DNA of 64,000 nt from Theobroma cacao. Taxonomy: Eukaryota; Streptophyta; Magnoliopsida; Malvales; Malvaceae. Under the pieces are notes generated by a model, which ran no database searches, was not told the DNA's origin, and saw only the letters and a list, made by a program, of their open reading frames with translations. A program made the position numbers and the translations under genes. The DNA is taken from assembly GCF_000208745.1 (NCBI RefSeq), contig NC_030851.1:8858112-8922111 (forward strand). Reading direction: 5' to 3'. How positions within the stretch are numbered: position 1 is the first letter of the stretch; each line of letters starts with the position of its first letter. Of the stretch, positions 1,925 through 64,000 are shown in pieces.

Positions 1925-4900
1925 ATGGAAATGAGAAGGGCTTGTTATGCCATTTTTGTCGTCATATTGCTTTGCGCTTTGGCCATGGGGAGCTCAGACG
2001 GTAAGAGGAGGATGCCTGAAACATTTCTTGCCGATCAAGGCTGGACAACAACATCCCTGAAGATAAATGAAGAAATGGTATGATGATTTTTCTATCACCT
2101 GCTCTAATTTCCTGAATTCTTGGAGCTGAAATGTTGTTAATGGTTATCATTAGTAGCAAAATGTGTTTTCATTTCTTTTACCAAGGCTTTGAATGAATGC
2201 ATTTGAAGATTCCAGTCTGAGTTGGTACTTTAGCGTATTTAGCATTCTGATGAAGGGAATTGAACAAATATGCTTTGAAAATAAGAAGAAAGAATAACTT
2301 TAAATCCTTGGCAATTCTGTTAAATTCTTGTTATGGGGAACAAATCAGTTTGACTTCTGAGGTGGTTCAGCCGTTGAAATAGTTATGCAGGCTTCTAAGC
2401 TATGTCAAAAGGTGTCCTTATTCTCTGATTTATAACATTAGTTATTTCCCTTTCTAGGGGTTTAGAGGCAGATTATAGCAAAGATTCACGTATGAAGAAG
2501 GTTTAGCCTGAGTATCTTTGATGCTTGATGCAAACAAATGCAAAATGAAAAGTTGATCTGAGGTACATGTGACAGCAATTACTAATCTACGAAGTTGTTT
2601 GAAGATGAAAAAACAAGATTTACTTGTTATAGTTTTCAATTTTGTTTGACATTGCAAGTTATGTATGTCAAATTCTTTCATATTGTATAGTTCCATGTTT
2701 AGTTTCTTTTGCCGTTGCCTCCTCTGCCTCTCCTTACCACTCCCAGCCTTGATGCTGGTAAAATATGGATATTTAAAATTTCCACCTTCTTCTAAATCTA
2801 GTCAAATTTGAGGTTCGGGATTGAAAATATGACCTGATAAAAGCTTGATGAAAATTTCTAATTGCAGGCAGAGGAGGCATGGATTCATTGCACGAAAGAG
2901 ATGGCAGAAAAAAGAGATGCTATTAAAGATTTTGACCTGTATATGCCACAAACAACCAATGACTTGATATCAGCATTGTTGGCGAAAGGAAACATAGAAA
3001 AAGCTATTGATATTTTGCCTCCTCAAGTGAGAGAAACACTTTTTGATTGCTTAAGTAAGAAAGGACTAATCTTTCATGCTTCCAATCCAGAGGTTACCTT
3101 TAAGCACTGGTTTCGAAAGTGTCTTGAGTTTATTTTTAAATTGCCACATGCCCCTAGAAGATATCTGGTTAGTGTATCAAATCAACACATAACCTCAGGC
3201 CCTTCTCCAGCTCTAGTTCCTAAGAGAACACCAGCACCAGCACCAATATCTGCAGCGGTACCTGCAGCATTTAGTTATGGTCCTGCACCAACACCATTTA
3301 GTTATGTGCCAGCACCATCCAATCAAGCTCATGCACGCTATCTAAGGTCACATCCGCCTGGTGGTGCTTTAGCTAATTCACTTCTCATATCAAACAAGAT
3401 TTTCACTTCTTCACCACCACCAGATCTCAAACATTCTCGTACTAACCCATCACTAGCAACACATAAAGATTTATCACCTGGTGCCCATGATAGGACTCAG
3501 CATTCACCAGAAGAAAAGGACGTCATGAAGGAAACTGTTATTGCTGTTATTGTGACTGCAGCCACAACATTTGCTCTTGTTGCATTGGTCTTCTTTTGTT
3601 GTCTGAAGGGAACTAGCCGAAAAAAAGATGAAAAGCCTCTTCTTTGCTTGAGTGATTACTTAAGTGATTTCTCTTGTGGTATGTGCTTGTTGTGTTTGTT
3701 TGTCATTGAGTTGTTATCATCTTCATTTTCTTGTTAATGTTTCCACAAGCATTTTAACTTTACGATCTTTCAGATTCTTCACAGAAGTCTATTAGTTTAG
3801 GCAGTTCCAGTGACAAAGAATATCGTACTAGCAGCCGAAAGAACCCTTCTTTGGCTGGTAGTTCGTCCATGAAGCAAGATAATCATGATGCCTCACTTGC
3901 AAAAGCACCACCATCAGAAGCAACTGAAGGTGCACCATTTCCTCCCCTGAAACCTCCTCCTGGGAGATCAGCTCCTCCACCTCCTGCAGCACCACCACCT
4001 CCCCCTGTTCGTCCTAATCCCCCACCTCCACCTAAAGTTGCTCGTCCTCCACCTATGCCACCAAAATCAAAACATTCACCCCTTGGACCACATCGTCGAG
4101 GACATAGTGCTTCTGGTAGTGGAGATGAGACTGATGGTGAATCTGGAGCTCCAAAAGCCAAGTTAAAACCATTTTTCTGGGACAAGGTTATGGCTAATTC
4201 CGATCAGACGATGGTTTGGCATGAGATCAGTGCTGGATCATTCCAGTAAGACAATAATTCAAACTTTTATCAATTTAGATTTTCTCACTAACAATGTTTT
4301 GTCAAAATTTTCTTTGATTCTAAATCGTGTTAGTAACCTTTACAGGTTCAATGAAGAGATGATGGAGAGTTTATTTGGTTATAATTATGGGACTAATAAA
4401 AAGAATGATCAAAAGAAAGATTCACTATCAGAACCTTCAATCCAGTACATTCAGATTATTGACACCAGAAAAGCACAAAATTTGTCTATTCTTCTACGCG
4501 CACTAAATGTCACAACAGAGGAAGTTGTTGATGCTCTTCGAGAAGGTTTCTCTCTATCTCTTAAAGAAATGCTGGCAGAAGTACTCAATCATGCTAGTAA
4601 CCAGAATTTACTTTTCTGGTTTGACAGACAATTAGAATGCACAAAATTTGATTGAAGAAAGAGAATTAATTGGTAAAATTGATAATTTCATCTTTGTTTC
4701 GATGCAAATATTTTCTACCACTCAATGATTCCAAACAACTCTTACCTGTTGATGTTTTACTTTTGGGGTGAATAGAATTTCTAATGCCAAATGTTTAAAT
4801 TTCCCTTGTAATTTAGATTTTAGACACATAAGGAAACTACTTCACTATTTAGAGAATAATTTGGTGTTGAATGTAATAGGAATTCAAGTAATTATTTGTG

Positions 4901-6776
4901 CTTATTGGGCTAATTTGGTAAGTTACTACTTTCTGTTGTTTTATTTGTTCATTGCTGCATAGAGTTTGAGTTATTAATCTTTTCTGACGGTTCATAACCC
5001 TGTTATTAGAGGAGAATAAGTGATGAAGGATTCTCTCAGATCAATTGTCTGGCTATTGAAGTCTCCTGGACTGTTGAATAAGATATAGTCCTAAATATTA
5101 GCTTCCAAATATTTTTCAATAATTTTAAGCTCGACTGAAATAGAATTGTTTTGGTTTTTCTAATATCTTACTGGCAAAAAAATCAAAGCAGTCACACACT
5201 TTCTCGTTACTTAAGTGAGAAAAGCATGTCAAAGACAGACAGTAATTGAGATGTTTGGTGCATATACATTGGTTGCAAAGGCAGAAAGATTTAAATTCTT
5301 ATTCATCTATGCTGGTGGGTGTTTCAGATACACCTTCTTCACTCTTAAATACATCTGACAGCTAACTCTTCAAAATTAAAATGACCCAGGTAACGAGCTT
5401 CCAGCAGAGCTCCTTCAAACATTGCAGAAGATGGCACCAACAACAGAAGAGGAACTAAAGCTTAGATTATTCACTGGAGATGTTTCTCAACTGGGTCCTC
5501 CAGAGAGGTTCCTTAAAATCTTGGTTGAAATACCTTTTGCCTTCAAACGAATTGAGTCATTGATTTTCATGAGTACTCTCCGTGAGGAAGTCACTGGCAT
5601 TAAAGAATCCTTTGCAACTCTTGAGGTGAGATACTAGATATAAGAATTGAATGCCAGAGAGGCCTTCAGGTTCCCCTAGAGGCTAGAAGGAAATGAAAAC
5701 AAGAGTATATCTCATAAGCTGTGTACTAACTTTTTGGTCGATGGAATCTTCTGATTCTCACTAATCAGGACCACAGAATCTAATGATGTTCTTAAAACAC
5801 ATGTCCTGGGAACTTATGTTCATGAATGTAGTTCCTACATCAAAGAATTTTTATTAAATAAAGATAAGAATTTTTATTGTCTTAATGGCAGGTAGCTTGC
5901 TCCAAGCTCAAAAGTAGCAGACTATTCCTAAAACTTCTAGAAGCAGTGCTTAAAACTGGAAATCGCATGAATGATGGTACCTACCGAGGTGGTGCACAGG
6001 CATTCAAGCTTGACACACTCTTGAAACTGTCTGATGTCAAAGGAACAGATGGTAAGACCACACTCCTCCACTTTGTAGTTCAGGAGATCATACGTTCTGA
6101 GGGCATAAGAGCTGTTCGTGCACAACTATCAAGCCGGAGCCTTTCGAGTTTCAATTCAGAGGACTTCGCTGAAGATCACAACCAAGACAAGGAGGAACAT
6201 TACCGCAGTCTTGGTCTTCAAGTGGTTTCAGGTGTAAGCAGTGAACTTGAAGATGTTAAGAAGGCTGCAGTAATTGATGCTGATGCCCTGACAGCTACCG
6301 TGTCAAAACTTAATCATTCTTTGACAAAAACTAGGGAGTTTTTGAATTCTGAGTTGAAGAGTACAGATGAGGACAGTGAATTTTTTCGTTCATTGTCTAG
6401 TTTTGTGGACCGTGCAGATGCCGATATTAGATGGCTTTCAGAGGAAGAAAAAAGGATAATGGACCTGGTCAAGAGCACAGCAGATTACTTTCATGGACAG
6501 GCAGGGAAAAATGAAGGCTTGCGTTTGTTTGCAATTGTGCGTGATTTCTTGATAATGTTAGATAAGGCATGTAAAGAAGTTAGGGACACAAGAGCAAAGC
6601 CACTCAGGAATTCCAGAAAAGAGTGTGCATCAGTGTCATCTTCTCTAGAGAACCAGCAGCCTTCTTCTTTGGAAAACCAGCAACCATCCTCAGATATTCG
6701 TAAACGACTATTTCCAGCAATTTCTGACCGGCGGATGGACAGTTCCAGTTCAGATGATGAAAGCTCCTCTCAATAG
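1925..6776 (+). CDS. Group I formin (FH5-like), six exons
   Basis: Actin nucleator anchored in a membrane. In-frame exons are 1925-2077, 2868-3678, 3774-4245, 4346-4545, 5390-5625 and 5892-6776, with GT-AG borders and phases 0,1,2,1,0, giving 918 residues, close to the length of Arabidopsis FH5. In order: a hydrophobic signal peptide (about residues 1-21), an extracellular part with a proline/alanine-rich stretch (about 150-190), one transmembrane helix (about 275-297, VIAVIVTAATTFALVALVFF), a cytoplasmic polyproline FH1 block (about 370-410), then FH2 from KLKPFFWDKV (about 451) with the GNRMNDG signature in exon 6. FH1 binds profilin-actin and FH2 nucleates and caps filaments in known formins. 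No stop, frameshift or missing core motif was seen. The start gives the signal peptide expected of group I plant formins. FH5 is the best family match, but paralogue identity would need a tree. Confidence 0.93.
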
Positions 6777-42680: not shown

Positions 42681-43200
42681 AACCTACAATTATCATGTAT
42701 AAACATGTATAATACAATTATCAATTATATTACATGAGCCTACTAGTCACATTATAATTAATCTTTCCACCAGCCACCAGTCACCAATCAATTTAATTGA
42801 TCTTGACTAATAATGAAATTAAGATTAATATTTGATGCACTAACAATGAATAGATTCTATACATTGTTAGTTTACCACATGCTAACATCTCATTAATTAA
42901 ATAAACCTAAAAATCTTAAGGACTTAAATTTAAATAGTAAAAAGTTTTTAATAAGTAGTTAAATTAAAAACAAAAAAAAATTCTTTTTTTCTCTCTTTAT
43001 CTGCCTCACAACGTTTTTTGATTATTCTCTTTTTTTTTTATCTTTCTCTAACTCCTTTATATTCTTCTCCCTTTCTTCTTCTTCATTAAAATTAAGTTTG
43101 ATAAAATTGGCAAACTTGTTCAACTTCAAGAGATTGTTAGGACAATGGTCACATTTTCAATCTCTTAACCCATGTCAGTCAAACTTTACAAAAGATAAAA
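42681..43200. other. Intergenic DNA
   Basis: AT-rich with a T/C-rich patch (42975-43085). No gene recognised. Confidence 0.4.
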
Positions 43201-43599
43201 GGGGAAATTTTTTTTTAGACCTTAAAAATAACGTGTTTTTGTAAATAAGCCTTCAGATAATTTTAATTGTTTTTAGCCAAAAGAATAGATTTTTCGACAA
43301 AAATGCCCTTAATGAGCCATTTTCTTTGAGCCATCTTCTGAATTATCGTTCAACTGTAAACACAGATAATTATTTTCTTTAAAAATATCCATTTTTTTTC
43401 GCGAAGCTTGTACAAAACAAAATAATGTTGTATGAAATGATTTTTCAGAGATTTTGGACATGACATTCAAATAATAGGAAAAGAATGATATTAAACTGAA
43501 CGAGGAACCGATCATGATGAATCGAAAGCTTGGAGAATGATGTGAAACCAGAAATTCGTGATACGGTGGTGAATCGAAAGGAGAAAGATGTGAATCCAA

Positions 43600-44095
43600 G
43601 GCACAAAATGGTTATGCTACAGCAGGCCATATGTGAGACGGCTGTGGCAGGGCAAGGTTTAGCGTTTGTGAAACGGCATGTTGAGAATATGACACATAAC
43701 ATGGTGGGAATGTGTGGCAGGGCTGTGACACGGTAGGGTTTAAAATTTGTGACACGACATGGTTGGAATGTGTGACACGGTTGTGACACGGCAGGGTTTA
43801 GAGTTTGTGACACGCCATGGTGGGAATGTGTGACACAGTTGTGACACGTCAGCGTTCAAAGTTGGTGACATGCCATGGAGGGAATTTGTGACACGCTAGA
43901 GTTTAGAGTTGGTGACACACCATGGAGGGAATCTGTGACCCGTCAACGTTCAAAGTTGGTGACACGCCACGGAGGGAATCTGTGAAATGCCAGCGTTCAG
44001 AGTCGTGACACGCCATGGAGGAAATTTGTGACACGTCAGTGTTCAGAGTTTTTCAGACTCCATGGAGATCCATGACATGGCAGGGTTTAGAGTGT
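43600..44095. repeat. Left subterminal GTGACACG array of the MULE
   Basis: About ten diverged units of 45-60 bp, built around GTGACACGCCATGGAGGGAA and GTCAGCGTTCAAAGTTG. Related GTGACACG words recur in inverted form at 51009-51190 near the other end. Confidence 0.75.
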
Positions 44096-44100
44096 GTGAC

Positions 44101-44286
44101 ACGTTATATGCATGACGTGTTAACACAGTTTGCGTTATATGTATGGCGTGTTACCACAGTTTACGTTATATGCATGGTGTGTTACCATAGTTTACGTTAT
44201 ATGCATGGCGTGTTACCACATTTTACGTTATATGCATGGCGTGTTACCACATTTTACATTATATGCATGGCGTGTTGCCACATTAT
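44101..44286 (+). repeat. 31-bp tandem array, six copies (left)
   Basis: Unit starts fall at 44101, 44132, 44163, 44194, 44225 and 44256, an exact 31-bp period. The core is ACGTTATATGCATGGCGTG followed by TTACCACATTTT. The same unit, inverted and also six times, stands at the other end of the MULE. Confidence 0.9.
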
Positions 44287-44324
44287 GGGTTAACTCACTC
44301 GTGCATGTGTGCCATATTTTGTCG

Positions 44325-46738
44325 ATGCAGTCCAGACAGTATGAGGATCTTGACAGTTTGATTATTGTGCTGAGGGAAAAGAGGGCGTTCAATGTCGCTA
44401 TTAACACCCACTGTAAGTGGTCCCAACTTCATTAAATCAATAAGACCCTACAAGAGAAAGGGGAGTATGATGTAGTGAAGCGTATGTGTTTCGGGTTGCT
44501 GCTGAACTTATATTGGCAAGGCTACTTCTCCGCTGGTCTCCTACACAACATCATGATCCGTCGAATCACTGTGACAGATTCAATGGAGCATGAGTTATGA
44601 TTTGCGATATCAAAGCAGGAGTTCTGCCTTATCACCGGACTAAAGTTTGGTCGAATGCCTGATGTGTTCACACAACCGTAGGAGGTTATTGCAGACGAAA
44701 TTCATGCTCGATACTAGAATGGGCAATAAAACGTTAAGCTGTAGGCCTTGCTTGATATGTTCCGCGGAGGCAACTTTCAACAATTGGGAGACACGACCAA
44801 AATGGCACTCATCTTGATCGCGAATAACATTTTGTTTAGTCAAGACTATCGTAGAAAGGTGATGCCTTGGCTCTTCACGTTGGTGGAGGATATCGACGCT
44901 TGGAATGTCTTCCCATGGGGTCATTACATTTGGAGGCTAACTTTGGACTACCTTTTGAAGGGGTTCGAAATGCCTTCCTCGAACGTGCAGAAGGCTCGTT
45001 TACAGTACAATATTTATGGATTCGCGTGGGTGATACAGGTATTGCCATGTAACATTTTTTATTTTTCTTTTGACATAATAATTTATGGTTGCAATCGTTT
45101 ATCATTTACGGTCTGGTAATGGTTACATTTGACTTGAAGTTCTGGGCAATGAAGGTAATTTCGGCCTTACGAAAGATAGTTGCCCCTTCTGTTCCAAAGG
45201 ATGTCTACCCATGCATGTGCAGATGGCAATGCAACCAGAAGCCAAAAGACTTCTATAAGGCAGTTGAGATGTTGGAGTCATCTCAGCAGGTGAGTGAACA
45301 GCTACTAATTTCTGCTATGAATTTGTATAATAATTTTTCCTAAAATTTAATCACAATCCCTATTTTGCAGTTGTGGGCAGTGCAGACCTTGGAGCCCACC
45401 TCGGATGAGGCCAATCGGGATTATTTTGTGGACATTGATGTCCCGTTATCTTAGGGCCACCAATACGTGCCAATAGGGCACATGGAGGATCTGGCGAATT
45501 AGGGCTTAAGTGCGAGGGAAAATAGGAGAAACTTGAAGCACAAAAGAGCTACTGGTTCCATGAAGTGGAGACGCATCGCCTCTGCTATCGTCGATGAGCT
45601 TTCGGTCCCTGAGTTGATGGAGGAAGGTGACGACCATGGAAATGGCAGTGAAGAGCCGATAAGAACGATTTTAAAGGTTTATGTTCAATAATTCCATATG
45701 TGATTATCGAATAATATATCTGTGTTTGCAGTTGGACCATGCGACGATAACTCCACAACCACCGATAGATCCTCCTCAAACTCACAGTACTAGTGAGGAA
45801 CCGGTAAGGATGGTTATAACGGTTTGTGTTAAAAAATTTCATATGTGATTATCCAATAACATATTTGTGTTTGCAATTGGACGATGCGATGATAGCTCCT
45901 CGACCACCAATCGGTCCTGCTCAACCGCAAAGTGGTAATGAGCCGCTGGTAAGGATATTAAAGTTCTAACGAGTAATGTTCAACAATTTCATATATAATT
46001 ATTGAATAACACAGTAATATATGTTATTACAATTGACGTAGTCGACAAGAGTCAATGACGGAGTAGTCACAAAGCGTCAGCTGCGACGGATCATGCACCG
46101 ATATGAAAAGACATGTCAGAGCTGAAGGCTTCAATTCAGTCGTTGACTCTGGTGATGCAAATGTTTGAGGACCGTGTCGTTGCTCGAATTCTAAACGGCT
46201 TCAAATCACAAGTACGTTATTCTATCTTCGCTCATATATTGGTCGTTACGTTTAGTAGGTGTAGTTCTATTTTTTATTCTCGGTTTATGGTTTGTGGTAT
46301 TATATGAGGTAACGAATTTTTTCATTTGTCTCGTTATGTAGGGCGGTCCTTCATCTGGCGGTGCTGGTGAGGGCCACGATGATGCTGATGATGGGCACGA
46401 TGATGAACCTGGTGTGCACATTCATGATGACGTTGCTAGTGTTGAGGGAGACTTTGTTCCTGAGGTTGATCCGGTTATCGATGCATATGTAGGAGGGGAG
46501 GAGGACTTTCACTCAGTCGTGGCGAAAGAAGAGGATATTCCTCAAGTCGATGCATTAGTGGAGCCAGCAACAAGAGGGGACCATATTCCTTAGAGCACTC
46601 TTGAAGCCAGTGGCTCCCGGTTGTCGTCACTAGAGTCATCTGATGTCCATCATCATGCAGTAGAAATTTCAAACCCAACTGAGTAGGCTCAGGTGAAAAT
46701 GGCGAGAAAATACAAACCAAGCCCATACGTCAACCCCT
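44325..46738 (+). pseudogene. DUF1985 protein gene relic (MULE cargo)
   Basis: From ATG 44325 a broken frame carries the DUF1985 pattern: CFGLLLNLYWQGYFSAGLLH (about 44490-44550), KQEFCLITGLKFGRMPDVF (about 44615), then WNVFPWGHYIWRLTLDYLLKG (about 44900). Further exons look like 45140-45291, 45371-45670, 45732-45803, 45877-45948, about 46080-46210 and 46342-46738, the last acidic (DEPGVHIHDD) and ending RKYKPSPYVNPS. In related genes that ending precedes a Ulp1-type cysteine protease, which is missing here. Stops at about 44433, 44597, 44680, 44716, 45454, 45502 and 46591 disable it. Exon borders beyond the clear GT/AG sites are approximate. Function of DUF1985 is unknown. Confidence 0.78.
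45732..45948 (+). repeat. Tandemly repeated exon-plus-intron module
   Basis: Two 72-bp exons, 45732-45803 and 45877-45948, encode similar peptides LDHATITPQPPIDPPQ and LDDAMIAPRPPIGPAQ. Each is followed by a similar intron starting GTAAGGAT and containing TTCATAT(G/A)T(G/A)ATTAT. The period is 145 bp. The acceptor before the second exon reads TTGCAA in place of TTGCAG. More modules are at 63449-64000. Confidence 0.75.
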
Positions 46739-46774
46739 CAGTGAGCCGTCGGGATGTAAAAAGCACAACGGTTG

Positions 46775-47225
46775 AAGCGTGTCACCACAAGATGGGGCGT
46801 GTCGTGTCACCGTAAAATACAGCAAGAAGTCAACGTGTCACCACAAGAATCTGCATGCACTCAGCGTGTAACGCTAAGTATCTGATTCCATTCAGCGTGT
46901 CACCATAAGATGGGGCGTGACGTGTCACCCAGAATATAGAAAGAAGTCAGCGTGTCACCACAGAAATCTGCATGCACTCAATGTGTCACGCCAAGTATCT
47001 GGTTCAACTCAGTGTGTCACCACAAGATGGGGCGTGCTGTGTCACCCCACAATACTATAAGAAGTCAACGTGTCACCATAGAAATCTGCATGCCCTCAGC
47101 GTGTCACGTCAACAATCTGGTTCCATTCAGCGTGTCATCATAAGATTGGGCGTGCCGTGTCACCCAACAATACTGCAAGAAGTTAGTGTGTCACCACAAA
47201 AATCTGCATGCACTCAGAGTGTTAG
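46775..47225. repeat. 118-bp tandem array between the convergent MULE genes
   Basis: GATGGGGCGTG or its variant occurs at 46791, 46909, 47026 and 47144, a 117-118-bp period over almost four units. Each unit contains several GTGTCACC words and ATCTGCATGCACTCA. It lies immediately after the last DUF1985 codons. Confidence 0.88.
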
Positions 47226-47709
47226 CTTAGCAAAATATATTTTTAGGAATTTTTGTCCTTATATTTCAATTTTATTTTTTAAATGTTTTAATTTAATAAA
47301 AATTAATTATTATGATTCATAGATCAAATTTGATTGGATGATTTGTTTGGTCAAGTCATGTGTTTTAATCTTAAATTTCATATCATATGTTTTTAATGAG
47401 TCCAAAATTTTCTCTTTCTAGACTTGCATCCTTTAAAGTAAACTCCTTGGTACAATATTATTATTATTATTTTGTTAATTGATTGGCTTAAAGTTTTATA
47501 TGGAGGTAACAATATAAGGACTTCGTAAGTCTATTAAGTGTTCAAAACTATGGACAAAATGAAATATATAATCAAATAATATATCGACAAAATTAATGAA
47601 AAAAATAAAGACTCATCTACAATAGGAAACTAACAAACACAAAATCCAAATATGAATGAATGTAAGATATTGCAAGAGCAAATTGTGACAAAGGTATTGC
47701 ACATGAGTT

Positions 47710-50640
47710 ACACATTTAGTTAGGCCGACAAGCTGTCTTCATCCACAAGACACCCTACATTTTCAGACATTGTCCTTCGTATTGGACATTTGTTGTGTGT
47801 GTGACCAGTTTGTCTGCAACTTGAACATGCTTTCTGTTGGCGCACTCGTGGAGGCGCCGATTGACTTAGAGATGGTGCCGGATTTGTGGATGGAATTGCA
47901 AATGGTGATGGGTAATTCTGTCTGTTATGGTCATACCTCTTGCATTGAGAACATCTCAGTGCTCGACTGCCTTCACCGGCCGATGGAATCTTTTTCCTCC
48001 TAGGTCTTCCCGCTTAGCCTCACCAAGGTGGTGGCAAGACGGTAATTTGTTTCACATGAGGGGGGATGTCCCACTCACTAGGATGGCTTATCGGGCGAAT
48101 GGACCCCATATAACCCTCCACCAAAACGGTTGTCTTGTAGTAGTCAGCGCAGATTTCAATGGCTTCACGTTTGCATTTATTGAAAAATACAATGAACTCA
48201 ATCTTCAAGCACAATGTAAATACTATGTCAATTAGGGTTCAAATAAGAAATAAAGATATTCTTACCTTATTGCTGCAATGGCATGGCTGGATGGTAGTAA
48301 ATTTGTTTGGAACTCACAACATGAACACGTCTTCGTGGACAGGTTTACAAGTCTGTCCATCTTCCCGTCTTTAACTTCGAACTCCACTCGATTGATAGGT
48401 TTAACCACAAAGCGATGTGCATCATTGAACTGTTTGCTCAACTGCCTCGCAACCCAAGGGTTGAAGGGCGTGGTCACCTTGACAGCCTCCTCGTACAGGT
48501 CATGGAACCAACGCTCGAACATGTCTCTGATGAACTCGATCAAAATAGTGATTAGCATTTATCTTGCGTGCTTCAAGCATGAGTTAACACATTCCGCAAT
48601 GTTGGATGTCATCATTTGGTATCGCCTTGTCGGTGAATAGGCACGTGCCCATCTCTCAGGGCCTATTCTCATAAGGTTAGTGTGGGCTCCCGCGTGAATC
48701 TACTTAAGCTGGTTCATATGTCTGTTGAAATCAGAAACCTTATAGCAATCTTGAGCATGGGTGAAAATCATAGAAACGTCGTCATGCTTGAACTTGTTTT
48801 TAAAGTTTTTCTTCAAGTGGTACCCGCATAAACCATGGTGCGCTTTAGGGTATGCATTTTGAATTGTTTTCGTAATGTCGAGATGCTGATCAGAAATGAA
48901 CATAGTGTTTTCAAGACAACCTACCGCATCACACAGCTTGCTAAGAAACCACATCCACGAGTCTTCGTGCTCAACATGGCTGATGCCAAATGCAACTAGA
49001 TATACGCACTCGATCGCATATTTGCATACAATGACAAACAGAACACCCTTAAACCTGCCTTTCAGATGTGTCGCATCAATTGCAACCGTATGACGCATTA
49101 CATCCCTAAACCCCCAAATACAAGCCTCGTATGCCCAGAAATAATATTTGAATCTTTCTGCCTCATCAGTAGCCATGTAGTGACTGTGCCGGGATTTTCT
49201 TGTTCCAACATATAAAAATATAAAAGTAGTAGTTGAAATGACTCCTCTAGGGGACCGAAAGCAAGCCTCTCCGCATATTCCTTCGCTTGCTAGGCCTTAC
49301 CATACAAGCACTCCAATCCCCACTAAACCCTTATTTCACCAATTATATCTTTAGGTCTCAATGCTACTCCATTAGCCTGAAACTTGTGTGACATAAGTTC
49401 ACCAATTATCTTCGCACTCGCGGTTACAAATTGCCCTTGCAAACCATCGACAATACATGTGTGTATTTTGTGGAACGTCCGAACTTGCCAATATTCTCCT
49501 CATTCGGGTAACTTTCTTGCACGCACATTGAACTTGCATGCCTTATCCTTGCAACCAACCTCATAACGAGCTTTACATGACTTTTTTACTCTTATCCCAA
49601 ACTGCTCTTTTAGAGTTTAAAGCCAACATGTTCAAAGCTCGTTTCAACTCGACCTTCGAGGAAAATATTCTTCCTTTATATAAGCAATCATCGACATATG
49701 TCGACTCTTCAATTGTAATTGTTTGGAAGGAGAACCTTTCTGCACTTGGAATTACCCATGTACGAGATATCCCTGCATTTCTCCTTTCTTGAAAACTGTC
49801 ATGGAGCAATGTACCAGGGGAACGAATCCCGTTCTCATCAGCGATGGGGTTATTGTATATGGGGTCATCACACTGAACATCTCCTACATCAACACCTCCA
49901 ACAAGTTCCGTTTCGCCTTCAACATTATTGCAAATTGGAATGTCATTGTCATAAAGCTAGTCCTCGCCTACACTCTCACCATGCCATTCATCAGGCCCAT
50001 CATCCGAATTGTCATCAAATCTATCTTCACCGGCAAGGAACAAATCCTCATTTCCCTAATCACATGCAGTATTATCCTCGAGCGTCGCAGTGTCACCCTC
50101 CAACGTCACAGTGTTGTACTCAAGTGTCGCATTCTCATTTGAAAATGCCATTACACCTTGTACAGTTTTACCCAATTATTGCATTTGTTAGATAGCAGTA
50201 ACTAATTGGTTCGATGCACATCCTGATCAGAATTGTGCAGCCAACTATTCTGTGAATGTCGTGTGTCTACCGGGCTACACAAACTCTTGTGCATACGTCA
50301 ATTGCCATTGCTGTGGGTTATAGACCGAATGTTGTGGTATATGTGAAGCATTGTATATCTCATTTTGATTAAGCTGATTACCATGTTGTTCAGCTTCTTC
50401 ATGTGACATAACATTTGTTTGGCGTCCCTTAATGCTAACATACACAACCAGAACATTCCTTTGTTCTAGCAGAATTAATGCAACATCCTCATCGTCTTTG
50501 ATAATTGGCCATGATAGCTCTCCAGGTGTACTGATCAATACATGTAACTCAATCTCGTCAATTTCTGAATTTACCCCAACAACATCTTCAACCAGCTTCA
50601 TCAATCCTGCAAACGACAAATCACTCATAACCCCTCGCAT
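47710..50640 (-). pseudogene. MuDR-type MULE transposase relic
   Basis: Cut-and-paste transposase of the MULE, broken by stops. Reading down the minus strand: N-terminal region MRGVMSDLSFAGLMKL (50640), a MuDR N-terminal domain near GRIFSSKVELKRALNM (about 49660), the catalytic MULE domain with HTVAIDATHLKGRFKGVLF (about 49090) and FISDQHLDI (about 48880), a SWIM zinc finger CSCCEFQTNLLPSSH (about 48300), an intron-like break near 48235, then GYMGSIRPISHPSEWDIPP (about 48110) and the C-terminal GRPRRKRIPS with knuckles CSQCKRYDHNR and CSSCRQTGHTHNKC (about 48000-47760). Stops occur near 50275, 49572, 49380, 49200 and 48699. It is almost full length in layout, so loss of activity looks recent relative to the LINE relics. 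Confidence 0.85.
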
Positions 50641-50821
50641 TCGTTACTCACCACCCTTGTAAATGCCATCCACCCACAGACCATCGTGTCTTATCACAAG
50701 TCGCACAATTGAAACCCCATTGAAATTTTGAAAACAACAATAATTTGTCAATCATTTAACACATTACATGACATGCCGTGTTCTAGAATTTGTCAGTCAT
50801 GTTATAACACACCATGCTATA

Positions 50822-51008
50822 ACACAGAATGTGGTAACACGCTATGCATATAACGTAGAATGTGGTAACATGCTATGCATATAACGTAAAATGTGGTAAC
50901 ACGCCATGCATGTAATGTAAAATGTGATAATACGCCATGCATGTAATGTAAAATGTGGTAACACGCCATGCATATAACGTAAAATGTGGTAACACGCCAT
51001 GCATATAA
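50822..51008 (-). repeat. 31-bp tandem array, six copies (right, inverted)
   Basis: GTGGTAACACGC or its variant occurs at 50831, 50862, 50893, 50924, 50955 and 50986, an exact 31-bp period. The core TGGTAACACGCCATGCATAT is the complement of the left array's unit. Confidence 0.9.
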
Positions 51009-51190
51009 TGCCAACGCTGACACGCTAATGACTATAATTACTGTGTCCTTACACGAACTGGCATAAAATACCCATGGCATGTGACACGCCAATCAGTGTA
51101 ATTATTGACTCGTTACACAAACTGTCCTAAAATAACCAATGTCGTGACACGCTAAAATAACGCTAACACATGTTATAGATGCATGGCGTG
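51009..51190. repeat. Right subterminal GTGACACG repeat region of the MULE
   Basis: Diverged units of about 70 bp hold GACACGCTAATGACTATAATTA- and GACACGCCAATCAGTGTAATTA-like sequence. This is the counterpart of the left array at 43600-44095. Confidence 0.65.
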
Positions 51191-51811
51191 TAACAACTCT
51201 GGGCAATGTTTCTAATCCATGTTCTAATTTACACCAAATGTTTCAAAAATTTAAGTGTTGCATCAATAAACCCAATAACATACCTTGATGTCATCTCTGC
51301 TATAGGGTCTGTTAATCTACGACAATATGGCCACATGCCGAGAGATAGACCACAGCCCGATGACGATGGTGCTCAACAGAGAGTTGACAGAGCTCATACA
51401 GTTCAGAGAGCTGATGACGATGGTGCTCAATAGAGAGTTGGCAGAGTTGAGACAGTTTAGAGAGTTGAGAGAGAAAGATGACTGAGCTCAAACAGTTGAG
51501 CATTTATTTTTTTCTATTTTCTCTCTGGTGAGAGGGAGATATCGAGACCCTAATTTGAAAAGATGTTTTTAAGGGCATTTTGGTCTACTCATGCTTTGTT
51601 TTTTTGCTAAAAATAGATAACTTTATATGGGTGATTATTTCTGAAATCACTTTATCACGATGTCTATTTTTCACAATTTTTTTCTTTTCTTTTGAAATAT
51701 GAGTAATAAAAAATTGCAGTCCACCGCGATGAGGTGGTAGGTACATTTCTCTCTAGTAGTAAGTAATTAAGAGCACCAAAAGTTGACCGTGTATAACTTT
51801 TTATTTAAGGA

Positions 51812-54173
51812 ATGGACATCCTGTTTCCTCTAAAACGTTTACGAATAATGAAAAAACTGATAGCTGCCCCTCCCTCCACTCTTCCTTGTTCTGCTGTAAT
51901 TGACTGCCACAGAAACTTGTTTTCACTATGGCTTACAACAGGGAGAAAGCTAGGCCGATCAGGATTACTTCACTCTTTCACAATCAGTTCAAAGCCCTGT
52001 TGCGTAGAAGCAAAGCAACGGCGATCAGCTAATTACCACCCTAGCATTTGGGACCCAAAAGTCATTGAATCCTTGACCACTCCATATTCGGCAAGTAAAC
52101 TTTTTCATCATGGATTTGCTTTGCTTTAGAGCCTTTTTTTCTTTGATCTGAATTTTGTACTAGCATGTGTTGCAGTATGAGTTTCATGGTACTAAATTAA
52201 AGGAGTTGAAGAAAGAGGTTACAAGTTTGCTGGCATTTGCCCCAGACCCTTGGGCTACATGGAAGCTAATCGACCTAATGCAGCGTTTAGGTGTGGCCTA
52301 CCATTTTGGCAAAGAGATTGATGAGGCTCTAAACAATGTCCTTAAAGAAACTGTAATCGGAGATCTTTATACAACTTCACTGCTGTTCCGGATTCTACGT
52401 GAACATGCTTTTCCAATAAGCACAGGTGATAGCAGAGTTGTAACCGTTAAATATAATTGTATAAAGCCAGATATGGCCTAATTTTATTCCCGAATTTAAT
52501 CGACCCATTCACTTTCTGATGATCGCGGTGGAAACAGACGTGTTCAACAAATTCAGAGGTAGAGATGGGAAATTCGTGGACAGTTTACGAGGAGACATGG
52601 CAGGGCTTTTGAGTTTGTATGAAGCTTCACACCTTGGAATGCATGGAGAAGATGTTATGGACGAGGCCCAGAAATTCAGTGCAGAGCATCTCAAGTCCTC
52701 ATTGGGGAAGATAGGTAGTAATTTAGCTTTCCAAGTGCAACAGTCCCTACAAGTTCCTTTACATTGGAAGATGCCCCGGATTGAGGCAAGGACTTTCATA
52801 GATGTCTACCAAAAGGATGACTCGAAGAACTCAATTTTGATTGAGCTAGCCAAGCTAGATTTCAATCTTGTGCAAGCAGTTCACCAGCAAGAACTCAAAG
52901 AGTTGGCGACGTAAGAATAATTGCATTAGTAAACTATTTTAATCAATATAGTACTAATCCAAAGGCATCTTTTGTTTCAACAGGTGGTGGAGAGACTTAG
53001 GGTTTAAAGAGAAGATGAGTTTTTCACGGGATCGATTGATGGAAAATTATATCTGGGCAATGCGAATCATCTTCGAGCCTCAATTCTCCAAATGCAGGAT
53101 TTACCTCACCAGATTCGTATGCATTTTAACCGCGATTGATGACATGTATGATGTATATGGAATGCTGGATGAACTTGAACTCTTTACCAGAGCAGTAAAT
53201 CAGTACGACAAAGATTCTTCTACTTCTTTTCCTCTTGGGGATTAAAATAGGAAATGATCTAACAAATTCCTCCATTTCTTTTTCTTTTATTGATTTTGGC
53301 AATTCAGATGGGATATTGGGGCCATGAAGGACCTTCCTGAATATATGAAGCCATGCTACTTAGCCTTGTTCAACTTTGTTAACGAATTGGGACATGATAT
53401 CCTAATAGATCATGGATTGGATATCACCCACTACATTAGGCAAGAGGTATGGAAGCTAGTGCCTATAAGAAAAAATTCTCATAAAAATGGCAAATTTTGT
53501 AGCAATGCCGCAGTTAATTTATCTGAAATTCTATGTTTACTGCAGTGGAAAAAACTTTGTGCATCATATTTAACTGAAGCGAGATGGTTTTACAACGGGC
53601 ACACACCAGTCCTGGAGGAGTATTTAGAAAACGCATGGATCTCAGTGGGTGGCCCTGCAGCCATAGTTCATGCTTATATTTTACAAGCAGGCTCAATGAC
53701 AGAAAAATCTCTTGATTATTGCTTCAAGCATGGGGTTGAGCTAATATATTGGTCGTCCCTAATCACCCGACTTGCCGATGATTTGGGTACTTCCAAGGTA
53801 TGTACTACTCAAATGTGTAATTAATAAATATATATAGTACAGTGCATCAAATTAACCCTTTTTTGCTTTTTCTGCTAAGGCCGAGAGTGCTAGAGGAGAC
53901 GTGGCAAAATCAACAGAGTGCTACATGATTGAAACAGGAGCGTCCAAAGAAGAAGCAAGAGATCACATTAAGGAATTGATGGCTCATTCATGGAAAAAGT
54001 TAAATGAGGAAAGCTACAAAAATTTACTACCAAGATCCATGATAAACATGTGCTTAAACATGGCACGCACTGCTCAGTGCATCTTCCAGCACGGAGATGG
54101 AATTGGAACATCAACCGGAGTGACAAAGGATCTTTTGATGTCACTCATTGCCGAACCTATCACAGCTGAATAG
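51812..54173 (+). CDS. Terpene synthase (TPS-b, plastid monoterpene synthase-like), seven exons
   Basis: Class I terpene cyclase expected to ionise geranyl diphosphate in the plastid. Exons: 51812-52090, 52176-52425, 52538-52910, 52984-53202, 53308-53446, 53546-53797, 53880-54173; phases 0,1,2,2,0,0. The seven-exon form fits TPS-b. From the first ATG it gives 601 residues; the in-frame ATG at 51848 gives 589 and is the one shared with the exon-1 copy at 34732. Motifs: serine-rich transit-like N-terminus, RR(x8)W at 70-80, RDR at 316-318, DDMYD at 353-357 and DDLGTSKAE (NSE/DTE) at 498-506, the two magnesium-binding sites. No stops or frameshifts were found. Intron 1 must use the donor TCG|GCAAGT (GC-AG); the nearby GTAAAC would create a stop. 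The acceptor of intron 2 lacks a strong pyrimidine tract. The product cannot be told from sequence. Confidence 0.9.
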
Positions 54174-63159: not shown

Positions 63160-64000
63160 TTGGAGTTGTGGGCAGTGGAGACCTTGGAGCCCACCCTGGA
63201 TGAGGCCAATCAGGATTATTTTGTGGACATTGATGTCCCGTTATCTGAGGGCCATCAATACGTGCCAATAAGGCACATGGAGGATCTGGCGATTTGGGGC
63301 TTAGGTGAGAGGGAAAATAGGAGAAACTTGAAAGAGATATGAGCCACTGCTGGCATGAAGCGGAGACACACTGCCGTTGCTTTAGTTGATGAGCTGTAAG
63401 GCCCTGAATTGATGGAAGAAGGGGACGACCATGGTCCATGCAACGAATAGCTGGTAAGGATTATTCTAATGGTTTGTGTTCAACAATTCCTTATGTGATT
63501 ATTGAATAACATATCTGTGTTTGCAATTGAACCAGGCGACAGCAGCTCTACAACCACCGAGAGGTCCTCTTTAAATGCACAATGGTAACGAGCTGTTGGT
63601 AAGATCGGTTCTAACGATTTGTTTTCAACATTTTCACATGTTTATCGATTAACATAGTAATTTTTATTATTATAGTTAATAGAGGTGACAATAGGTCCTC
63701 AATGACTGATCGATTCGGCTCAACCGCAAGTGCTAATGAACTACCGATAAGGATATTAAAATTCTAATGGTTAATGTTCAATAATTTCATATATGATTAT
63801 TGAATAACATAGTAATATATGTTATCACAGTTGACCCATTCTACAAGAGTTGATGAGTTGTAAGGCCCTGAGTTGATGGAAGAAGAGGAAGACCATGGTC
63901 CATGCAGCGAATAGCTGGTAAGGATTATTCTAATGGTTTGTGTTCAACAATTCCTTATGTGATTATTGAATAACATATCTGTGTTTGCAGTTGAACCAGG
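63160..64000 (+). pseudogene. Partial copy of the MULE DUF1985 cargo gene, with repeated modules
   Basis: 63165-63450 closely matches 45371-45660 (LWAVETLEPTLDEANQDYFV, DIDVPLSEGHQYVP, GHMEDLA-like). After it stand exon-plus-intron modules like those at 45732-45948: 63537-63598 (62 bp, ALQPPRGPL), about 63677-63748, then a repeat of 63385-63545 at 63849-64000, a 464-bp offset. Stops at 63342, 63398 and 63448 disable it. The region stops at the window edge inside a module, so the array may continue. It is joined directly to the hAT relic, suggesting another MULE copy or a rearranged piece. Confidence 0.75.

Follow-up and report, generated by a model that had tools for sequence, protein, structure and literature searches.

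A clustered CGTGTYAC word in a decayed cacao MULE as a candidate docking site for the element's own DUF1985 protein

Why would a transposable element carry the same minisatellite, in mirror image, on both of its sides? This question is raised by a Mutator-like element (MULE) in a stretch of Theobroma cacao DNA (contig NC_030851.1, positions 8,858,112 to 8,922,111; 64,000 nucleotides, hereafter the window, to whose own numbering all coordinates refer), in which an earlier note had described two six-copy arrays of a 31-bp unit in opposite orientation. These arrays prove to belong to a larger set with one 8-bp word in common, CGTGTYAC, and they stand in front of the remains of a transposase gene and of a gene for a protein with DUF1985, a domain of the Arabidopsis anti-silencing protein VANC. 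We consider it probable, from these features and by analogy with known systems, that the locus is the decayed remnant of a VANC/KIU-like MULE and that its arrays served as targets for the DUF1985 protein which it encoded.

Mirrored inner arrays and the word they share

The six-copy 31-bp arrays in opposite orientation were confirmed using Tandem Repeats Finder (TRF), a listing of units, and shuffled sequences: a 19-bp core of the unit, allowing up to 3 mismatches, occurs 12 times, 12/12 in the two inner arrays, and not once in 100 shuffles. The left inner array (44101-44286, + strand) has six units without indels (5.9 copies and 91% matches by TRF) and lies directly 5' of the DUF1985 gene, ending approximately 40 bp before that gene's first Met (44325). 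The right inner array (50826-51011, - strand) also has six units and stands approximately 95 bp 5' of the transposase gene, the start of which was extrapolated from P0035, P0037, and P0038 (residue 4 at 50721). Each gene is preceded by an inner array in the same orientation relative to that gene, and the two arrays pair as a 189-bp inverted repeat that is 88% complementary. Equal copy number, as previously claimed, holds for the six full units on each side; on the right, however, TRF reports 6.6 copies with a start at 50805, and alignment reveals a decayed seventh unit from about this position with a 1-bp gap, so that 'six and six' depends on where counting stops.

Mean mismatch between units is 3.6 within the left arm, 3.5 within the right arm, and 3.86 between arms. 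Given that within-arm and between-arm distances are alike, both arms draw on one pool of units, and a common origin of the units of the two inner arrays is likely. Pairing the units in outer-to-outer register gives a mean mismatch of 4.0, compared with a mean of 3.86 over all pairs; of the 720 pairings, 642 are equal or better. Register between the arms was rejected on this basis as a trace of arm duplication, and the proposal that the arrays were kept in step by conversion, or arose by simple duplication of an arm, is unsupported. The unit distances likewise give no support to strict coupling of the two arms, although exchange between them may have occurred at some time.

Element limits close to 43.2 and 51.7 kb, as proposed earlier, are plausible. 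The array coordinates that accompanied them cover part of the feature only, because the 8-bp word is repeated throughout the left outer, middle, and right outer arrays as well. The 8-mer CGTGTCAC occurs in all three blocks (left, middle, and right) but nowhere else in the 64-kb window; it is counted 44 times across both strands (22 sites), compared with 12 at most in shuffles on the same counting. Together with its T variant it constitutes the motif CGTGTYAC, which has 29 exact copies in the window: 11 in the left outer arrays (43699-44103, - strand, 58-bp and 47-bp periods by TRF, read as GTGACACG on the + strand), 3 in the left inner array (3/6 units, the rest having one mismatch), 9 in the middle array (46776-47222, + strand, 118-bp period by TRF), 4 in the right inner array (4/6 units), and 2 in the right outer array (51018-51194, - strand, 64-bp period by TRF). 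All 29 lie within the element's non-coding DNA; its coding DNA, about 4.8 kb within manually set limits, has none, and neither do the other 55.5 kb, such that the feature of VANC targets, arrays of a word that is rare elsewhere, is seen here within the 64-kb window. Shuffles of the window yielded a mean of 0.67 exact copies (maximum 3), and shuffling the main non-coding blocks of the element gave a mean of 0.3 (maximum 4). Allowing up to one mismatch, the element contains 55 copies, 2 of them coding.

The main motif spacings are 11 and 23/24 bp in the left outer arrays, 31 bp in both inner arrays, and 25+31+31+31 bp in the middle array; arrays unlike in period keep one 8-bp word. Exact copies are co-oriented inside each array (+ in the left inner and middle arrays, - in the left outer, right inner, and right outer arrays), and their orientation is not uniform across the element. 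A further tandem repeat, two copies of 54 bp without the exact motif, was detected by TRF in the right terminal region (51359-51473).

The earlier note had also suggested a ladder of binding sites at the element's ends, perhaps for transposase. The arrays do look like a protein-binding ladder, but they adjoin gene starts rather than termini, and transposase as the ligand is unsupported. A ladder on which transposase assembles near both ends for excision would suit the inverted symmetry of the inner arrays, the subterminal tandem repeats found inside the terminal inverted repeats (TIRs) of mosquito MULEs (PMC5225508), and the binding of MURA to a site of approximately 32 bp in Mutator TIRs (PMC3310237). 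We nevertheless regard it as quite unlikely, since the sites keep clear of the ends and are found both in the middle and inside a relative's gene: the outer ~520 bp on either side lack the exact motif, the first copy lying about 500 bp in from each end, nine exact copies occupy the middle array and eleven the oppositely oriented left outer arrays, and one relative carries an array inside its DUF1985 gene model (P0013, see below).

Also unsupported is the earlier supposition that matching inner minisatellites are unusual, given the arrays of VANDAL elements (PMC5735166) and the short subterminal tandem repeats in 10 of 12 long-TIR MULE families of Aedes (PMC5225508). Muta1 and Muta5, foldback-type MULEs of Aedes aegypti, resemble the cacao element in having matching tandem repeats in both arms (PMC5225508). 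Their repeats, however, measure 9-15 bp and lie inside the TIR, whereas the cacao arrays lie further in, beside genes and also in the middle, with all exact motifs outside the 87-column TIR-like match described in the next section.

Two convergent genes in a decayed element

The ends of the element carry TIR-like stretches at 43228-43312 (+ strand) and 51569-51655 (- strand), which match in inverted orientation at 71% over 87 columns, with a score of 41 versus a maximum of 31 in 500 shuffles (0/500 as good). No convincing target-site duplication of 8-11 bp was found, the only perfect 9-bp match being the low-complexity AATTTTTTT in a T-rich context. Identity as a MULE, which had been proposed earlier, is borne out by a broken MuDR-type transposase gene (47718-50730, - strand) with Pfam matches to MULE (PF10551, E = 3.6e-17) and Transposase_mut (PF00872, E = 1.2e-9). 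This gene contains stops and frame changes, its SWIM match falls below the cut-off, and a zinc knuckle was recognized by eye. Twelve of its 17 relatives are named Theobroma cacao, and the two best are cacao transposases (67% and 59% identical).

Convergent with the transposase gene is a broken DUF1985 (VANC/KIU-like) gene (44325-46776, + strand) with introns and six stops in its first exon. The DUF1985 domain was identified by Pfam (E = 6.5e-13) at 49.3 bits versus a curated cut-off of 35.1, this score being that of a read-through translation with X at stops, while the stop-free piece alone scores 30.4 bits and falls below the cut-off. Of the 33 matches that represent its relatives, 22 are named Theobroma cacao. 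Inside the gene, TRF and exon matches reveal a tandem duplication of 145 bp that comprises an exon and its intron (45647-45956, + strand). Stops and frame changes leave this copy dead and, judged by its sequence, the element is a decayed two-gene cacao MULE with a transposase and a DUF1985 protein. An AlphaFold2 model of the DUF1985 relative P0002 (24 sequences) had a mean predicted local distance difference test score (pLDDT) of 46 and was not used.

Elsewhere in the window, at 63160-64000, lies part of another copy of the DUF1985 gene (79% identity over 700 bp); its homology starts abruptly at the match to 45365, and it has a repeated exon-intron block and no exact CGTGTYAC. Approximately 1.3 kb to the right of the element lies a terpene synthase coding sequence (52985-53824; Pfam Terpene_synth_C, E = 4.5e-34 for 53294-53821). 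It is matched by the cacao model P0016 (gamma-terpinene synthase-like), the end of which also matches the DUF1985 gene. Open reading frames at 2862-6776 resemble a formin gene (proline-rich, then FH2-like) by eye only.

The partner gene of the maize MuDR transposase gene, mudrB, is not known to be related to DUF1985. In layout, MuDR resembles the cacao element in that its two genes converge and their 5' ends share matching sequence (PMC3310237), although in MuDR this matching sequence is a long TIR, from the promoters of which both genes are transcribed (PMC3310237). The cacao arrays might, in the same manner, serve a host factor as binding sites or be no more than the promoters of the two convergent genes, having been copied from end to end. 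This would agree with the inner arrays being 40-95 bp upstream of the gene starts and facing both genes in the same way. Repeats of this kind would leave unexplained both why the motif recurs in the middle array, which lies between the 3' ends of the two genes, and why a relative has an array inside its gene, and we hold the explanation to be unlikely. A promoter role is, however, compatible with docking sites for the DUF1985 protein, and the two may be the same thing.

Comparison with VANC systems and relatives

VANC, the anti-silencing protein of Arabidopsis VANDAL elements, combines DUF1985 with DUF287 (PMC5735166). It binds short motifs that form high-density arrays in the non-coding DNA of its own VANDAL family, where DNA methylation is then lost (PMC5735166, PMC10398659). 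These target arrays evolve as tandem repeats form, among other places within VANC introns and 5' of VANA, and VANC genes themselves have tandem duplications (PMC5735166). The cacao element resembles VANDAL21 and VANDAL6 with their VANC proteins in several features described there, including: (i) a MULE with a transposase and a DUF1985 protein, (ii) a short motif in non-coding tandem arrays, some of them before genes, and (iii) a tandem duplication within the DUF1985 gene (PMC5735166). It is because these parts of a VANC system are present (a DUF1985 gene, several arrays that differ in period but have one word in common, arrays 5' of genes, and the 145-bp duplication) that we read the arrays as probable docking sites. 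The cacao element differs from VANDAL21 and VANDAL6 in its motif, CGTGTYAC containing a CpG as opposed to YAGTATTAY or AGTTGTCC/AGTTGTAC, in its mirrored inner arrays and degenerate TIR, and in that no DUF287 was found in it.

A second point of comparison is the KIU (Kaonashi) group, which comprises VANC genes with a Ulp1 domain that act like other VANCs (PMC13317346). Relatives of the window's DUF1985 gene resemble KIU MULEs (PMC13317346) in having DUF1985 and/or Ulp1: Ulp1 (PF02902) is listed for 9 of the 33 relatives and both domains together for 4, two of these four being from Dipteronia. Unlike KIU MULEs, the window copy has no detectable Ulp1 part (12 relatives compared with the element at E 10), and homology mostly stops at the middle array: at its start (46776) in 7 relatives and at 46857 in 2, with no match there in the remaining 3. 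Four further matches fall within 46.7-47.7 kb (E 0.5 to 6), and the sole match from a Ulp1 part (P0005, E 4.3) lies inside the middle array. The middle array occupies the place where relatives run on into the Ulp1 part.

Translated arrays were found in 5 of 50 fetched relatives, these five being cacao gene models, when at least 60% of a match (E 1e-3) was required to lie inside an array. In P0003, P0014, and P0021 the N-terminus matches the left outer array, upstream of the DUF1985 part, and P0015 carries the 118-bp array type. P0013 contains two 31-residue repeats (25/31 identical), 31 residues being equivalent to 93 bp or three 31-bp units; these sit between residues that flank an intron in the window copy, and TRF found no comparable array in that intron. 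P0008 and P0018 were excluded from the count, as their matches do no more than extend into the left array. Such evidence is indirect, because gene models read non-coding repeats as protein, but it shows that other copies of the element also have arrays, some in matching positions and some elsewhere. Consecutive cacao locus tags, TCM_043606 (transposase) and TCM_043607 (DUF1985-Ulp1), which lie on contigs of equal length and so probably on a single one, suggest that the same two-gene unit exists elsewhere in cacao.

Transposable elements often carry minisatellites, and those described here might be neutral and functionless, having grown by slippage and been copied from arm to arm. In keeping with this, the present copy is dead, register between its arms is lost, and 45 of the 50 relatives' gene models have no array by the above rule, though most gene models would leave out non-coding DNA. 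Neutral expansion is nonetheless very improbable in view of the one word kept across unlike periods, exact copies of which are lacking in coding DNA and flanks, and of the arrays that precede the DUF1985 gene in three relatives.

Predicted anti-silencing, and what it would mean

Several observations weigh against the proposal that the arrays were targets of a VANC-like protein. With up to one mismatch allowed, 17 further CGTGTYAC sites lie outside the element, and the exact word is present in just 7 of the 12 inner 31-bp units. CGTGTYAC is also no closer to the VANC21 and VANC6 motifs than chance (6/8 at best, equalled by 11% of random motifs), and a likeness to the VANC21 motif was rejected. 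DUF287 was found neither in the tested pieces of the window copy nor in any of 10 relatives scanned (E 1), and it is listed for none of the 33 DUF1985-gene relatives. VANDALs are described as non-TIR MULEs (PMC13317346), whereas the cacao element has a degenerate TIR; by strict membership it is not a VANDAL, although by analogy it would work like one. None of the 17 transposase relatives has a translated array, and for this reason the right-hand array has not yet been seen in another copy. A dedicated search for more array translations returned none at E 10 among 980 candidates, but this is a weak test, since it also missed the known carrier P0013.

With these points taken into account, we still think the docking-site proposal probably correct. 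Clustered CGTGTYAC copies are the predicted binding sites of the element's own DUF1985 protein, which, once bound, would remove silencing marks from its own family alone. Because both of these convergent genes have the same cluster directly before them, the two promoters would open jointly, which would account for the mirrored layout. The motif itself may have spread by tandem duplication plus exchange.

The CpG within the word deserves separate mention. The CpG observed/expected ratio is 0.78 in the element (43200-51700) compared with 0.44-0.46 in its 10-kb flanks. Among one-mismatch copies, 8/17 have a transition (C-to-T or G-to-A) at the motif CpG, compared with 2/23 of possible changes (p = 4e-5, a value that treats non-independent tandem copies as independent and ignores general transition bias); the sample consists of the 26 one-mismatch copies in the element, minus 2 that are coding and 7 that overlap a copy on the opposite strand. 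These transitions suggest a trace of past methylation. We put forward, as a speculation with little probability, that a VANC-like system in a lineage of TIR-bearing cacao MULEs uses a target word with a CpG, the methylation of which would block binding. If true, the two ladders, one preceding each gene, would act as a heritable on/off switch, with both genes open when the ladders are bound and both shut when they are methylated. A choice of target that depends on CpG would be a new mode of targeting, because the published VANC21 and VANC6 motifs contain no CpG (PMC5735166).

Among the literature matches listed, none concerned such arrays in cacao, as judged by titles and the starts of abstracts. 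Mirrored inner arrays would find a simple explanation in the provision of the same docking platform for each gene of the element, and CGTGTYAC offers a concrete motif to test. The approach taken here, a search for one word common to unlike minisatellites across the non-coding DNA of a MULE, may provide a sequence-only route to other such systems. Motif-array anti-silencing by DUF1985 proteins, which has been shown in Arabidopsis, is suggested by this element to have operated also in cacao, with a different word.

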